From Pelagibius sp. (GTDB taxonomy: Bacteria; Pseudomonadota; Alphaproteobacteria; Kiloniellales; Kiloniellaceae), in assembly GCF_028289705.1 (NCBI RefSeq), contig NZ_JANQOI010000164.1, forward strand, positions 1 through 46,528: a DNA stretch of 46,528 bases. Reading direction: 5' to 3'. Positions 9,086 through 43,455 of this stretch are shown in pieces; position 1 is the stretch's first letter, and each line of letters begins with the position of its first letter. Below the pieces are notes generated by a model, which was given only the letters and a program-made list of their open reading frames with translations, was not told where the DNA came from and did no database searches. The translations under genes and the position numbers were made by a program.

Positions 9086-10003
9086 GTGAGTTACCTTGAT
9101 CGCATTGCCCGCTGTCATCGCTGGAACCCTGAGGACTACCTGCCCTTTCTGGTGGATGGCCGGCCGCTGGGCATGGTGGCGCGGGACTCGCTCGATCTGC
9201 TACGCGGCTTTCCCGAGGTCTTTGCGGTGGCCGACGCGTCGGTGGCCCTGGCACCCAAGCTGACGGGCTTCGAGGCGCGCAGTGCCGCCCTGGCGGCGGT
9301 GCTCGAAGGGCTGCGCGCGGAGCGCGGTGCCTTTCCCAACTGGCGCGGCGAGGACTATCCCATCGCCCCGCGCTGGGGCGAGGCGCCGCTGTTCAAGATG
9401 GAGCGCGCGGCGGTGCCCTTCTTCGGTCTGCCGGCCTACGGCGTGCACGTGAACGGCTTCGTGCGGCGGGCCGAGGGCCTGGCGGTCTGGGTCGGCCGCC
9501 GTTCGCGGCGCAAGCAGACGGCGCCGGGCAAGCTGGACCACCTCACCGCCGGCGGCCAGCCCTACGGTCTGGGTCTCATGGAAAACGTCATCAAGGAATG
9601 CGGGGAAGAGGCGGGTGTGCCGCCGGCGCTGGCGGCCCGGGCGGTGCCGGTCGGGGCGGTCAAGTACCGCTGCGCGATGCCCGACGGCCTGCGCAACGAT
9701 GTCGCCTTCTGCTACGACCTGGAACTGCCGGAGGACTTCGTGCCGCAGAACCGCGACGGCGAAATGGAGTCCTTCGAGCTCTGGCCTCTGGAGCGCGCCC
9801 TGGCGGCGGTGCGCGACAGCGAGGCCTTCAAGTTCAACGTCGCCTTGGTGACCATCGACTTCGCCCTGCGCCACGGCGTCCTCGACCCCGACAGCGAGCC
9901 GGATTACCAGGCCATCGTCGAGGGTATCGGAGGGTCTATTTCTCCGGGAACAGCGGCGGGCGGTCGCCGTGCAGATAGTCGATCAGGCGCTGCGGCAGGG
10001 TGA
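9086..10003 (+). CDS. DUF4743/Nudix hydrolase with a replaced C-terminus
   Basis: 305-residue protein with an N-terminal DUF4743 region and a Nudix domain. The Nudix box lies at about residues 156-178 (GGQPYGLGLMEN..IKECGEEAGV); its EEAG core is intact and Lys replaces the usual Arg. Eukaryotic relatives (YJR142W, Tnr3) hydrolyse damaged thiamine diphosphates; that role is only an analogy. The native C-terminus appears to be [14 protein letters not shown], as kept in the orphan fragment ending at 12042. Here, after DYQAIVEG, the frame runs into an antisense copy of the DUF3137 3' end and ends in 25 unrelated residues (IGGSISPGTAAGG...). The Nudix core is unaffected, so the protein may still work. 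Confidence 0.8.
   Translation: MSYLDRIARCHRWNPEDYLPFLVDGRPLGMVARDSLDLLRGFPEVFAVADASVALAPKLTGFEARSAALAAVLEGLRAERGAFPNWRGEDYPIAPRWGEAPLFKMERAAVPFFGLPAYGVHVNGFVRRAEGLAVWVGRRSRRKQTAPGKLDHLTAGGQPYGLGLMENVIKECGEEAGVPPALAARAVPVGAVKYRCAMPDGLRNDVAFCYDLELPEDFVPQNRDGEMESFELWPLERALAAVRDSEAFKFNVALVTIDFALRHGVLDPDSEPDYQAIVEGIGGSISPGTAAGGRRADSRSGAAAG
9797..9924 (+). repeat. Duplicated Nudix 3' segment, left copy
   Basis: These 128 nt are repeated at 11893-12020 in the same orientation with about seven mismatches. They encode the last ~42 residues of the Nudix protein. Together with the adjacent duplicated DUF3137 end (9942-10009) they form the left boundary of the inserted DNA. Confidence 0.9.
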
Positions 10004-10009
10004 GTTCGA
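9936..10009 (-). pseudogene. Detached 3' end of a DUF3137 gene
   Basis: Bases 9942-10009 match 12265-12332, the 3' end of the intact DUF3137 gene, at 67 of 68 positions. The minus-strand reading gives LPQRLIDYLHGDRPPLFPEK and then a TAG at 9938-9936, so even the stop codon is present. It is fused directly after the Nudix segment, with 15 nt between the two matched tracts compared with 244 nt in the resident copy. Nothing 5' of the final ~24 codons remains. Confidence 0.88.
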
Positions 10010-10043
10010 AATATGCGTGGAGTTCTCAGTTGTCGGAATGGCT

Positions 10044-11438
10044 TTAGCTGCTAAACAACAACCGGACCATTGCTTGGATCAGGTCGATTGTACTCACCCA
10101 AGATGCGTGTGCGGTCATTACCAATCCCGGCTGTGCTCCAGCGATCAAGCCCGGTCCGATCGTCAAGAGTGCTGCTCCTCCGAAAAACCACAGCGCTGGT
10201 AGGTCTGGCCATGTGGACTGATCTGCCGCCCGTGGGTACATCTTTTCGGCGCGAAGATGAAACATGAGGATGAACAACGCCATCGCTATCCCAATCGTGA
10301 CCGGTAGATAGGTGAGTAGGTTCTGCCCATAGATTGCGAATGCGTTGACACCATCTTCACAACGCAGCTTACACAGCTTCCGCGAACCCTTGGCTAGGTT
10401 CGATATCGTAGCCATTATTGTTCCGATGGCGCCAATCGCGACGACGACCGCAATGTTGTTGAATGCCCTATCGAGCAGGCTGATTCCAAACCGTTTATCT
10501 TCATGAGAGCTATTTAATACTATCTGTACTCGAAAATTACTGCGCGGTGAAATTGCCCGAAAGACAAAGTAAAAGAGATATATGCCTTTGAGAACCATCC
10601 ATATAGAGAATGGTATGAAGAGAATTTGTATAAGAATCGCGAAGAAGATAAATGCGTAGAAATAGATATCTCCGTCACTTCCGTAATTTATCTTTCCGAT
10701 CATCGAGATATTCTTGATACTCCATTGGCTAAATTCCCCTTCTTTTATTTCGCTCAAGCCGTCGATTCTTCGTCCAGAATCTTCTATTTCCTTTAGGTTT
10801 AGGTTCTCATAGCTCGAAATAAATGGCGCTTGCAGGTACCCAAAGGCTAGATGTTTGTAGTGCCCGGTTTTGCTATTGAACTCAGTAAAGATGACAACGA
10901 AGACTACGACCGTGAGCAGAGTAGTAGAAACGACAACCCAGATGAACCGAAGTGTATTAGTGCCTACGAGGCTTTGAATTGTTGGAGCGGACTGATCGAT
11001 ACGACTAACCAGCTGTCCTCTGTCTGCCAGATCTTCGAGTGCAATTCGCGCCCTCCAAAGGAAACGAGCGCCGAAAATGGCAAACAAAGGTGCGCCAAGT
11101 AAATAGAATGCTGCGGCGTTTAGCTCATATATGTAACCGAATTCTATGCGTTTACACCTTGGTTCTATGCAGTCTTCTATCTTACTTGCCTCTATTGAGG
11201 TCCCCATATAAAATTCTATTTGAATCAAACCTGCGCCAGAAACGACGCTTAACGTTGAGGTGACAAGGGCGAGAACAAAGAAGATCAACGCTATTCGGCC
11301 ACCATTGAGGTCGCCTTCAGGTGTCAAAAAACGGGAGGCTTGCAATAGCTTTCGGATTGGGGCTGGCTTCCAATCAAATTCCGGAACAAGGGGGTTTATT
11401 TGGAAGCTACTTTGCGAAACCTGACCTTCTTGGGGCAT
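10044..11438 (-). CDS. Unknown polytopic membrane protein on the inserted segment
   Basis: 464 residues; I do not recognise the family. The ATG at 11438 is preferred over a GTG at 11447 because AAGGG lies about nine bases before it. Hydrophobic segments are near residues 48-73, 105-128, 163-187, 258-293 (probably two), 328-348, 375-394 and 413-435, about eight in all. A polar loop of ~70 residues (188-257) separates the halves. Two short loops carry cysteine pairs, C90/C95 and C356/C360; each lies between a pair of hydrophobic segments and is followed by a Tyr...Asn stretch, which suggests an internal repeat. Codon use is AT-rich, with Ile/Lys/Asn/Phe in excess, unlike all neighbours, so recent acquisition is likely. 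No catalytic motif is seen. Confidence 0.75.
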   Translation of the reverse strand: MPQEGQVSQSSFQINPLVPEFDWKPAPIRKLLQASRFLTPEGDLNGGRIALIFFVLALVTSTLSVVSGAGLIQIEFYMGTSIEASKIEDCIEPRCKRIEFGYIYELNAAAFYLLGAPLFAIFGARFLWRARIALEDLADRGQLVSRIDQSAPTIQSLVGTNTLRFIWVVVSTTLLTVVVFVVIFTEFNSKTGHYKHLAFGYLQAPFISSYENLNLKEIEDSGRRIDGLSEIKEGEFSQWSIKNISMIGKINYGSDGDIYFYAFIFFAILIQILFIPFSIWMVLKGIYLFYFVFRAISPRSNFRVQIVLNSSHEDKRFGISLLDRAFNNIAVVVAIGAIGTIMATISNLAKGSRKLCKLRCEDGVNAFAIYGQNLLTYLPVTIGIAMALFILMFHLRAEKMYPRAADQSTWPDLPALWFFGGAALLTIGPGLIAGAQPGLVMTAHASWVSTIDLIQAMVRLLFSS

Positions 11439-11892
11439 TAAGAACACCCTTCATTTGACTCCACCTCGGACTCTGAAACTGGTTGAGTGGTTCAGCAACC
11501 TAGGTTTGCAGAATGGTAGAGCAATTTATCGGATTTCGCAATTACCAAGAAACTAGGTCAAGTATCGGAGGGGAAAATTGTGATCGCGGCATTATCGAAA
11601 GACGGACCTTCCATCGCGTAGACTTCTTTTTGGGGTTGGCTGAGGACTTTAAATTCGGTGATTGGAGTACCAGCTACTTTCTGATCAGTAACGATTTCTG
11701 ACCTTGGAAGTCGGTGGCACGGTAAAGTGTTGGATGATGTCATTGCTCCACTAACTTCCCTAGTGTCTTCAGTCAGGCAAAGAAGCCACAGCCATTCTTA
11801 TAGGGTTTCGAAGTTCGGACCGCAGAATTGAAATGAAAGGTTGGAGAAGTGTCTCGGCGAGATGCACCACAGCACTGAGAGGAGTTCAGGGG
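11439..11892. other. Non-coding right part of the insertion
   Basis: About 450 nt of AT-rich sequence upstream of the membrane-protein gene. A 62-codon open frame at 11513-11701 has no clear ribosome site or recognisable content and is not called. The segment should hold the promoter of the minus-strand gene, but I cannot single out a convincing one. It ends at the start of the duplicated Nudix segment. Confidence 0.5.
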
Positions 11893-12042
11893 GCCCTCGC
11901 GGTGGTGCGCGACAGCGAGAGCTTCAAGTTCAACGTCGCTTTGGTGACCATCGACTTCGCCCTGCGCCACGGCGTCCTCGACCCCGACAGCGAGCCGGAC
12001 TACCAGGCCATCGTCGAGGGGATGCGGGGAAACGTGGCGTGA
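11893..12042 (+). pseudogene. Orphan 3' fragment of the Nudix gene (right copy)
   Basis: Encodes [20 protein letters not shown]... through [14 protein letters not shown] and a natural TGA, matching the end of the DUF4743/Nudix gene at 9797-9924. There is no start region and no Nudix domain. This copy keeps what looks like the original C-terminus and stop, and the original spacing to the convergent DUF3137 gene. Confidence 0.88.
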
Positions 12043-12070
12043 TCGCGCCAGAAGCTTGCGCTTAAGCTCG

Positions 12071-12252
12071 TCCTCCCTCCTTGCGGGGGAGGAAGAAAAA
12101 TCTTGCGCTTGGCGGCGCTTCAGCGGCGTCAAGCGTTAGATTTTTCAGGAGGGGGGTGCGGTTGGTTTCCCCCCCCTCTTGCACAATCAAGGCGTTGCCC
12201 TCGGTGAGGCCAACACCATGATTCTGCTTTCTCCCCCGCAAGGGGGGAGAGG
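12071..12252. repeat. Intergenic element D, copy 1, with nested palindrome
   Basis: Left end TCCTCCCTCCTTGCGGGGG and right part 12191-12252 (GAGGCCAACACCATGATT...CTCCCCC) match the element at 16463-16674. The middle differs between copies: here it holds a 48-nt near-palindrome at 12097-12144 (AAAATCTTGCGCTTGGCGGC and its mirror). This whole element is absent from the second Nudix/DUF3137 junction at 9925-9941. Confidence 0.7.
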
Positions 12253-12258
12253 ATCGGG

Positions 12259-13260
12259 TTAGCGCTCCGGGAACAGCGGCGGGCGGTCGCCGTGCAGATA
12301 GTCGATCAGGCGCTGCGGCAGAGTGAGTTCGACGGCCAGCCGGCGCACGTCCTCCTCGGCGTGTTCCAGGGAGCGGTTCAGGCGGCCGATCTCGAAGAGG
12401 TTCTCGCGCCGCGGGATGGCGATCAGAAAGCGGTTCTCCATGAAGGCGCAGTTGACCGCACCACGGCCGGCGGCATCTGCGATGGCCAGGAGCGAGTCCA
12501 ACAGAGCCGGCTGCAGCAGGCCGCGCGCCTCCTCCGGCCGGTCGCTGTAGACCTGATAGCGGGCTTCGAAGGCCTCCTGGCCGGTCTCCACCGCCGAGAG
12601 GTTGGTCATCTTGGCGCGCAGCCAGTCGACGATCCGGTTGCCTAGCGCGCCCTTGTCGCCGACCAAGAGCACCGTGCACGCGAACGGCTGGGGCACCGAG
12701 ATCTCGCAGAGCAGCCCGGCGAACACCGTGCGCTGGCGGCTCTTTCCCGAAGAGCGCCGGCGCTGCTTCAGCCGAGCCTCGACCATGCGGTAGTCGGTGT
12801 TGCGGTAGCGGCCGATGAGCAGGTCTTCCAGCTTGGCACGGTTGAACCCGGCGGTGATGCCGCTGCGCCTGAAGCGGTCGAGATCGAAACGCTCGCCGGG
12901 CTTGCGGTGGTACTCCAGCCCGCCGAGGAAGCGCTGCAGGGGTTCGATGACCAGCCCGCGCATGGCCTCGCGGTGGCGCCGGCTGGGCGCGGAGACCCAG
13001 AAGGCACCGCCCACGGCGCCGATGGCCGCGACCACGATGCCGATGGGCCAGGCATCGGTGAAGGCCGCGGTGATGGCCACCACGAGCGCGAGCACGAAGG
13101 CAAGGCCGGCGGCCCGGGTATAGGCGGACTGGCGCAGCTCCTTGCGCCCGGCCTCCACTCCCGGCAGGCCGGGCGCGATCTCGGCGGCGAAGAACGCGGC
13201 GAAGGATTGCTCGCCGCCATGCTGGTTGTCTGCCGGTACGGTTGAGTGGTCTTGGGTCAT
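12259..13260 (-). CDS. DUF3137-domain membrane protein
   Basis: 333 residues. Two adjacent transmembrane segments lie at about 50-68 and 73-92 (AGLAFVLALVVAITAAF, PIGIVVAAIGAVGGAFWV), then a large cytoplasmic domain with FAGLLCEISVPQPFACTVLLVGD typical of DUF3137. The biochemical function of the family is unknown to me. It starts nine bases after the gluQ stop, so the two are probably co-transcribed. Its 3' end (12265-12332) is duplicated at 9942-10009 at the left side of the insertion. The gene itself appears intact. Confidence 0.85.
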   Translation of the reverse strand: MTQDHSTVPADNQHGGEQSFAAFFAAEIAPGLPGVEAGRKELRQSAYTRAAGLAFVLALVVAITAAFTDAWPIGIVVAAIGAVGGAFWVSAPSRRHREAMRGLVIEPLQRFLGGLEYHRKPGERFDLDRFRRSGITAGFNRAKLEDLLIGRYRNTDYRMVEARLKQRRRSSGKSRQRTVFAGLLCEISVPQPFACTVLLVGDKGALGNRIVDWLRAKMTNLSAVETGQEAFEARYQVYSDRPEEARGLLQPALLDSLLAIADAAGRGAVNCAFMENRFLIAIPRRENLFEIGRLNRSLEHAEEDVRRLAVELTLPQRLIDYLHGDRPPLFPER

Positions 13261-16462: not shown

Positions 16463-16674
16463 TTCCCCCTTGCGGGGGAGGAAGAAGACCATCGCCCTCT
16501 GGCTTCTCAAATCGTCATTGCCGGACTTGTTCCGGCAATCCATCGAAGTCCGGGTCTCGCTCTGTCCATGGACCCTCGGGACAAGCCCGAGGGTGACGAT
16601 GTGGGTGGGAATGCGTTGTCCTCTGCGAGGCCAACACCATGATTTCGCTTTCTCCCCCGCCAGGGGGGAGATGG
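16463..16674. repeat. Intergenic element D, copy 2, hosting element B
   Basis: The outer parts match the element at 12071-12252 (left TTCCCCCTTGCGGGGGAGGA; right GCGAGGCCAACACCATGATT and CTCCCCCGCCAGGGGGGAG). Between them is a complete copy of element B (16516-16600), where copy 1 has an unrelated palindrome. This looks like repeats inserted into repeats. Confidence 0.7.
16516..16600 (+). repeat. Element B, two-hairpin repeat, copy 1
   Basis: 85 nt with two palindromes, ATTGCCGGACTTGTTCCGGC.. and ACCCTCGGGACAAGCCCGAG.., joined by a ~30-nt linker. The reverse complement at 43296-43380 matches at 81 of 85 positions. On the minus strand it can be read as MDPRDKPEGDD, a peptide often mis-annotated from this widespread alphaproteobacterial repeat. 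Confidence 0.85.
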
Positions 16675-25881: not shown

Positions 25882-26565
25882 TCAGAAGTTGGCGGCTTCC
25901 GCCTCGTCCTCGACGGCTCTCGCCTGGGCCGCGGCGCTGATCGCCGCCTGGGTGCGGCTGTCCAGGTTCAGGCGCTTGACGATGGCCGAGACATGGACCC
26001 TGACGGTGTGCTCGGAGAGCCCCAAGGCCTCCGCCACCTGGGCATTCGACATGCCCTGACCCAAAAGCTTGTAGACCTGAAGCTGCCGCTTGGTCAGGGC
26101 TGTGGCCACGTCCTCCAGAGACTTCTCGTTGCCGAAGGCATAGACCGCCTGCTTCTTGGCCGGGTTGCGCTGTTCCAGAAGGCGCCGCGGGAAAGCGACG
26201 CCGCCGGCCAGCACGGTCTGCAGGGCGGAGGTCACTTCGTCGCTTTGCGACGACTTGGGAATGTAGCCCATGGCCCCAGCCTCGATGCAGCGCAGGATTT
26301 CATCCCTATCTTCGATGGCGGACATCACCACCACCGGCACCTGGGGCAGGCACTCCCGGATGGCGCGCAGTCCTTCGAAGCGCTTCATGCCCGGCATCAA
26401 CAGGTCCAGCAGTATCAGATCCAAGTCTGGATTGGCCGACGCCAGATCCAAGGCTTGGCGGAAGTCGGCCGCTTCCAGTAGCTCGCTGCCGCGCTCCAAC
26501 CGATCGATTAGATGTTTTGCAGCGCTGCGAGTAATCCAATGATCGTCGGCGTAAAGGACCTTCAT
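25882..26565 (-). CDS. NarL/LuxR-type response regulator
   Basis: 227 residues: a receiver domain (residues 1-120; acidic pocket ADDH, phospho-Asp D54 in ILLDLLMPG, Lys in IPKSS) and a C-terminal LuxR helix-turn-helix (about 155-215; LTKRQLQVYKLLGQGMSNAQ, LGLSEHTVRVHVSAI). It should bind DNA when phosphorylated. The gene is convergent with the soluble hybrid kinase gene, a natural cognate candidate. The C-terminal tail is Ala/Glu-rich. The start codon is the ATG at 26565; AGGA lies somewhat far upstream (about 12 nt). Confidence 0.92.
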   Translation of the reverse strand: MKVLYADDHWITRSAAKHLIDRLERGSELLEAADFRQALDLASANPDLDLILLDLLMPGMKRFEGLRAIRECLPQVPVVVMSAIEDRDEILRCIEAGAMGYIPKSSQSDEVTSALQTVLAGGVAFPRRLLEQRNPAKKQAVYAFGNEKSLEDVATALTKRQLQVYKLLGQGMSNAQVAEALGLSEHTVRVHVSAIVKRLNLDSRTQAAISAAAQARAVEDEAEAANF

Positions 26566-26937
26566 GATTTAGTCATTCCTGATTTGATTGCTGCTGCACG
26601 TGGAAGATATACCTTCCTTCCATTTTGTTATGGCCATGCCCAATTCGCGAGATAAACGAGATGGCAAGATAGCCCGCCGGGATCACGATAACCCACAACT
26701 AGCAGAGCAGTTAGTCATTCGATTCTGCAGAGCAACTATTTTCCGGTCTTTCGAAGAATTATCAACCAGAAAACATGGGTTCACCTTTGCGTTTTTTAGG
26801 AATTCCGCCAACAAACCCGATATCCACAGCCTCGGAACTCAATATATCCGGCACCTCGGGAGGCATCGAGCCTGCAACTTTTGGTTTATTTTTGACAGTT
26901 GCGCCCTTGCTGCAAACAGTGCGGTCGGACACTCCGA
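26566..26937. other. 372-nt AT-rich gap between the two regulator genes
   Basis: Markedly lower GC than the surrounding genes. An open frame of 117 codons exists at 26588-26941 but has no ribosome site and no recognisable content, so it is not called. The part next to 26565 should hold the promoter of the NarL-type gene; I see a CACGTG palindrome (26598-26603) but no clear -35/-10. Confidence 0.4.
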
Positions 26938-27363
26938 CTAGCCATTCTCGGTAAGCAAGGCAATGAATTGATCAACACTGACCGGTTTTCTCAAGAGGCG
27001 CAGGCCGGCCTCCGAAACGGCCGCCGAGATCTCGCTCGAGGAATCGCCGGTCAGGATGACGCCTCTCACACGGCCCCCCATTTGCGCGAGCACGGCCTGG
27101 GTGGCGGCAAGGCCACTTTCGTCCGGCGTGAGCCAGTAGTCCGCGACGACCCAGTCGGGTGTAAGGTCCGCTGAACGCAGCACTTCCAGTGCCTGGCCGC
27201 TGCCGGAGGCCACGACGACCTGGGCGCCGAGCCCGCGCAGCAGGCGTTCCGTCGCCCGCCTGACGAGGTCGTCGTCTTCGAACAGCACGATCGTCTTCCC
27301 GGCGAGGGGGGAGCGGTTTGGGGTTCGGTCGCTTTCTTCGCCGCTGCTGGCCACAGTCGTCAT
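26938..27363 (-). CDS. Stand-alone receiver (CheY-like) protein
   Basis: 141 residues if it starts at the ATG at 27363 (MTTVASSGEE), chosen because AGGA sits eight bases upstream; an ATG at 27372 is also possible. After a ~22-residue Ser/Pro-rich leader comes a single receiver domain: VLFEDDDLVRRATERLLRGLG, phospho-Asp D75 in WVVADYWLTPDESG, Thr in VILTGD and Lys in LLRKPVS. It lacks an output domain, so it probably relays phosphate or competes for the nearby kinase, whose own receiver looks dead. The D-Y-x-L form resembles receivers normally fused to such kinases. Confidence 0.85.
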   Translation of the reverse strand: MTTVASSGEESDRTPNRSPLAGKTIVLFEDDDLVRRATERLLRGLGAQVVVASGSGQALEVLRSADLTPDWVVADYWLTPDESGLAATQAVLAQMGGRVRGVILTGDSSSEISAAVSEAGLRLLRKPVSVDQFIALLTENG

Positions 27364-43187: not shown

Positions 43188-43295
43188 TCTCGTTTCGACT
43201 TGCGTCGCATGCAGGCCGGCACCGTCAAAGCCTGAGAGTCTGGCTGAAGTTAAGTGGCTTGAGTTCAATGGCTTGCCAAGGTTTTGCCGACCCCC

Positions 43296-43380
43296 ATCGT
43301 CACCCTCGGGCTTGTCCCGAGGGTCCATGGAAAGAGCGAGACCCAGACCTCGATGGATTGCCGGAACAAGTCCGGCAATA
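43296..43380 (-). repeat. Element B, two-hairpin repeat, copy 2 (inverted)
   Basis: Reverse complement of 16516-16600 with four mismatches in 85 nt. It carries the same two palindromes (GGCAAT..ATTGCC type and CCCTCGGG..CCCGAGGG type). It occupies the gap between mutL and the next small gene. Confidence 0.85.
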
Positions 43381-43455
43381 ACGGTCTGGAAAGGCCAGAG
43401 CAGGGGAGCCTTTGCCGGATGAGGTCAGGCCCTGAATGACTCTAAAGGATCACGG

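Follow-up and report, generated by a model that had tools for sequence, protein, structure and literature searches.

Campbell-type integration through a single crossover leaves the region of homology directly duplicated around the insert. Displaced gene ends are also left by homology-facilitated illegitimate recombination (HFIR), according to the accounts in PMC5361080, PMC2884548 and PMC3240628. The T6SS clusters of Vibrio are described as containing arrays of orphan gene ends, the displaced gene ends stemming from such imports (PMC5361080). Small variable segments of bacterial genomes that are non-mobile and lack both a recombinase and a known repeat have been ascribed to illegitimate recombination, and membrane genes are reported to occur often at such sites (PMC2884548).

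The locus analyzed here lies in the marine bacterium Pelagibius sp., on a window of 46,528 nucleotides that is one whole contig (G000:C48) of a draft genome of 193 contigs, 5.41 Mb and 2.09% contamination. It resembles HFIR and the Vibrio orphan arrays, as PMC5361080 presents them, in what appears to be a homology anchor on one side and may be an illegitimate join on the other, in the persistence of a displaced 3' gene fragment, and in copies that differ in the manner of alleles. Unlike in those arrays, two convergent housekeeping-type genes provide the anchor through their junction, one membrane gene makes up the cargo, and there is no series of strains in which the steps can be followed. A Campbell-type integration would likewise leave the homology region directly repeated on either side of the insert; the locus differs from one in that no circle, replicon or mobilization gene was found here. 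With the small variable segments, as characterized in PMC2884548, it shares the non-mobile, recombinase-free nature and the membrane gene; it is larger (1.9 kb) and carries a 0.2-kb duplicated gene junction on its flanks.

The duplicated junction and the segment it encloses

A Nudix hydrolase gene with DUF4743 and NUDIX domains (9086 to 10003, plus strand; PF15916, E = 3.7e-29; PF00293, E = 2e-5) and a DUF3137 gene (12259 to 13260, minus strand; PF11335, E = 2.4e-21) converge on the locus, and the 3' ends of both occur twice. The Nudix end at 9797 to 9927 (plus strand) recurs at 11893 to 12023 with 124 of 131 positions identical (94.7%; offset 2096) and a longest exact run of 59 bp (9845 to 9903). 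The DUF3137 end at 9942 to 10009 recurs within the intact gene at 12265 to 12332 with 67 of 68 positions identical (offset 2323) and a longest exact run of 57 bp. Alignment thus reproduced the duplication of both gene ends, at the positions at which the initial annotation had placed them. When direct repeats separated by less than 5 kb were sought throughout the window, these two offsets yielded 53 and 42 16-mer seeds, compared with 2 to 10 at each of the other six, and the two duplications are therefore not attributable to chance. The duplicated ends stand in direct order, with one Nudix and one DUF3137 gene still readable; the same homology block is directly repeated on both sides of the enclosed segment, and the spacer within the block differs between the copies.

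The left Nudix copy has lost its own stop and runs to 10003 (305 aa), entering the DUF3137 end fragment on its antisense strand; the Nudix orthologues of relatives finish near residues 278 to 281. Its tail (9925 to 9941, plus strand) is joined directly to the left DUF3137 end (9937 to 10009, minus strand, including the 68-nt repeat), which has its own in-frame stop after LFPEK. Since the left Nudix copy lacks its natural stop and the left DUF3137 end has one, this junction is a fusion in which the gene ends overlap by a few bases. The right Nudix fragment (11893 to 12042, plus strand) ends in its own stop at 12040 to 12042. Beyond the seven differences in 131 sites, the last 17 bases of the two tails agree at only 6 positions, and both tails stay open.

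In the right spacer, the Nudix stop is followed by about 47 nt of different sequence, then by a repeat element that is partly palindromic (12071 to 12253, no strand assigned; inverted arms 12073 to 12113 and 12209 to 12249), and then by 11 nt and the intact DUF3137 gene. Two further near-full copies of the element occur in the genome (90% and 89% identity; on C127 and C25), and the part at 12189 to 12250 recurs in the window at 16610 to 16671. The 244-nt intergenic repeat initially annotated at the right edge is thus a genuine repeat, but the approximately 47 nt before the element and the 11 nt after do not match it. The partial copy at 16610 to 16671 is itself adjoined by one member of an inverted 114-bp repeat pair (90% identity; 16497 to 16609 and 43287 to 43400).

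The foreign-looking segment between the duplicated ends (10010 to 11887, 1878 bp, no strand assigned) begins and ends abruptly, at 10009/10010 and 11887/11888. Its GC content is 46.6% versus 67.6% in the rest of the contig, and no other 1878-bp stretch, examined in steps of 100, fell below 0.601. Elsewhere in the window the GC content dips to 0.555 at 26001 to 27000, beside an ORF (25882 to 26565, minus strand) that we take to encode a LuxR-type response regulator. The sole ORF longer than 83 aa that lies wholly inside the segment (10044 to 11447, minus strand) encodes a membrane protein of 467 aa from a GTG start, or 464 aa from an ATG at 11438, with about seven hydrophobic segments. Its GC content by codon position is flat (0.505, 0.396, 0.499), compared with 0.753, 0.466 and 0.885 in the Nudix gene. 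The description of the segment as AT-rich foreign DNA with a single membrane-protein gene, and without a recombinase or a classical target duplication, is borne out by these values and by the finding of neither a recombinase-sized ORF nor a short target duplication in the segment.

The segment has no second copy in its own genome and no credible match among plasmids or phages. The protein belongs to no family in Pfam (the best hit, DHHC, E = 0.11, was below the cut-off), NCBIfam, PADLOC, PHROGs or the PDB sequences. Apart from its own genome, no credible homologue was found in 41 near relatives, 385 genomes of the class and 398 of the phylum (overlapping sets), nor in plasmid and phage collections. 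Among 61 genomes of the order, searched up to E = 0.1, its own genome was recovered together with two weak matches that were not counted (E = 0.02 over residues 94 to 183 and E = 0.047 over residues 6 to 55). Pattern-based searches of GTDB contigs and IMG/VR, able to find close relatives only, returned none. Structure prediction without an alignment gave a mean pLDDT of 42.6, which is inadequate for searching by fold. Promoter and terminator scans of 9900 to 12350 showed no excess over shuffled sequences (1 versus 1.5 and 1 versus 2.7), and Rfam gave no match anywhere in the window. The foreign gene is most likely a passenger that encodes a membrane protein and has its own promoter; any role assigned to it is a guess.

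The Nudix site in the genus and the five-gene cassette

Seven genomes of the same genus were compared, none of them conspecific, the nearest Nudix gene being 78% identical at the DNA level. Each of the seven has the same five ORFs after the Nudix gene, an opposite-strand GMC oxidoreductase and then DctP, DctQ, DctM and an IclR regulator, the family names being taken from the window genome's own copies. DUF3137 comes next after this cassette in six of the seven, followed by gluQ. In G004 (C295, at about 24.2 kb), all that is left of DUF3137, beside gluQ, is a stretch resembling its start and, in another frame, some 30 residues from the C-terminal part. G003 and G007, alone among the seven, share an additional ORF, roughly 500 codons long, that lies between IclR and DUF3137. 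Outside the genus, the Nudix gene adjoins gluQ in 6 of 22 short loci; the other 16 have no gluQ within their 1.5-kb flanks. The content of the site varies across the genus. A bare convergence of Nudix and DUF3137, presumed in the initial annotation to be the starting state, was absent from every genome compared, and the cassette present after Nudix in all seven same-genus genomes speaks against it.

In the window genome the cassette is missing at the Nudix site and is located on another contig (C41:539-6432), beside a gene for sulfoacetaldehyde acetyltransferase, xsc (NCBIfam TIGR03457, 958 bits, cut-off 676). Its DNA matches that of G002 over C41:609-6408 with 83% identity. The DNA upstream of xsc in G002 and G006, which were checked closely, and in G005 has no match to the cassette. 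In single-protein trees of xsc and GMC, the window genome groups with G002 and G006 (100/100); in the Nudix tree it groups with G002 only (88/91), G006 being placed elsewhere, and the DUF3137 and gluQ trees do not resolve its placement. Because the xsc and GMC trees join it to G002 and G006, which retain the cassette at the Nudix site, loss or relocation of the cassette in the window lineage would be the shorter history, on which the Nudix, DUF3137 and gluQ trees are less clear.

The gene order of the cassette, IclR-DctM-DctQ-DctP-GMC, is that of the ise cluster of Ruegeria pomeroyi DSS-3 (SPO2355-2359, iseR-M-L-K-J), whose product is described as feeding xsc (PMC4334477); the IclR regulator, the TRAP M, Q and P subunits and the GMC dehydrogenase occur in the same order. 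A point against naming the cassette after isethionate is that its GMC protein falls in the NCBIfam choline dehydrogenase subfamily PRK02106 (634 bits, cut-off 605). Because of this assignment, and because the resemblance to Ruegeria lies in the gene order, the cassette is regarded as a putative sulfonate-type (isethionate) uptake and oxidation cluster, a role suggested by that order and by the adjacency to xsc.

Origin of the duplicated junction

We consider the locus, at about even chances, to be the merodiploid scar of homology-assisted recombination with DNA that brought the foreign gene from a related lineage. DNA of the order Nudix end, DUF3137 end, foreign gene would have entered the cell and paired by homology in the Nudix or the DUF3137 end. 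At its other end, linear DNA would have been joined illegitimately; alternatively, a circle would have been taken in by one crossover. Either route would leave one Nudix gene and one DUF3137 gene readable, and for this reason the arrangement may have survived. Homology to the recipient is found at one end of the presumed import, in the form of the 131-nt and 68-nt duplicated ends, as in HFIR. The seven differences in 131 sites, the unrelated open tails and the unlike spacers support a scar of two versions, as they amount to more than point mutation of a single duplicate easily gives. Other points in favor are the direct order of the duplicated ends with both genes readable, the low GC content, the absence of the insert protein from the near-relative, class and phylum genomes apart from its own, and the variability of the site in the genus. 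No donor or circle was found in the genomes, plasmids and phages searched.

The initial annotation had explained the locus by a single crossover with a circle composed of the Nudix end, the DUF3137 end and foreign DNA. The map is what such a crossover leaves, and the copies could pair over identical runs of 59 and 57 bp; this part of the proposal stands, and a circle is one of the two routes of the scar favored above. A circle is not needed, however, as linear import gives the same map, and the segment contains no gene for replication or mobilization and none of integrase size, nor does it match a plasmid or phage. As an explanation in its own right, Campbell-type integration is therefore rather unlikely. 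The two routes share the main claim and fit the map equally, and neither is preferred.

A similarly low probability is given to a local duplication, in which a template switch or similar error made two copies of the Nudix end and DUF3137 end, with foreign DNA caught where they join; drift of the right Nudix fragment would have followed, along with either a move of the element to the right spacer or deletion of the left one. Such an origin requires no second lineage, and the repeat element in the spacer recurs elsewhere in the genome. Of the sites that allow polarization, most changed on the right, in the non-functional Nudix fragment: at 9802, 9824 and 9844 the right copy departs from all seven relatives, which is also expected from drift of a local duplicate and counts as a point against import. 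Sites 9807 and 9904 are ambiguous, P. litoralis agreeing there with the right copy, and at 9825 both copies differ from all seven relatives. Against local duplication, the tails agree at 6 of 17 positions immediately after agreement at 124 of 131, and the only DUF3137 difference is on the right, in the intact gene, where all six relatives match the left copy.

The left Nudix copy is closer to six of the seven relatives by 1 to 4 sites of 131, and the right copy is closer to one; P. litoralis is nearly equidistant (106 and 105 of 131). The proposal that the circle had lacked the resident intergenic element presumed that the right copy is the resident one, which finds no support in this affinity of the left copy. 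The left tail agrees with that of P. litoralis at 10 of 17 positions, and 9 of 2000 shuffles scored as high; this was one of 14 comparisons, which together covered all seven relatives and excluded the DUF3137 repeat bases. With five such bases included, the score was reached in 19 of 5000 shuffles for the left tail and 532 of 5000 for the right; without them the likeness is weaker. As the tail likeness is one suggestive match in 14 comparisons, it adds less weight to the argument for two alleles. Together the comparisons suggest that the two copies may be alleles of two lineages rather than a local duplication, which is a lean and not a proof.

An assembly chimera is somewhat less probable again. 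Two strains, or a free circle and a bare chromosome, could have been merged through the 59-bp and 57-bp runs, an alternative reading of the same pieces being Nudix-repeat-DUF3137 together with an approximately 2.1-kb circle. The draft state of the genome, with its 193 contigs and 2.09% contamination, and exact runs shorter than many assembly k-mers are in keeping with this. However, none of the joins (about 9942, 10009/10010 and 11887/11888) falls within a shared run, and each has to be present in some molecule; ordinary reads, moreover, usually bridge runs of less than 60 bp. Very improbable is a site-specific island in which a recombinase-driven element brought a replacement Nudix 3' end and displaced the original. 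The left copy on the gene body and the displaced 3' fragment on the right do form an attL/attR pattern, but the end of a second gene is duplicated as well and an identical core is not delimited. The segment contains no ORF of recombinase or integrase size, which makes such an element unlikely, and no integrase was seen at the Nudix 3' end in any of the seven same-genus genomes.

The merodiploid scar favored here is of a known kind, and the locus seems to be an unremarkable relic of strains exchanging DNA. New is that the site in the genus held a catabolic cassette, which in the window genome is now elsewhere. It is a long shot that the segment represents a recombinase-free cassette that moves with the two convergent host gene ends as homology arms. 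If this were true, each entry would leave both host genes readable and add one accessory gene, and the site would serve as a permanent point of exchange, as is suggested by the variation in its content across the genus. In this locus one can read how a single foreign gene may enter a genome without a mobile-element gene, at a point of gene convergence. In one species, the five-gene catabolic cassette appears to have left this site and adjoins its likely pathway partner, xsc, and the membrane protein is a candidate for study.
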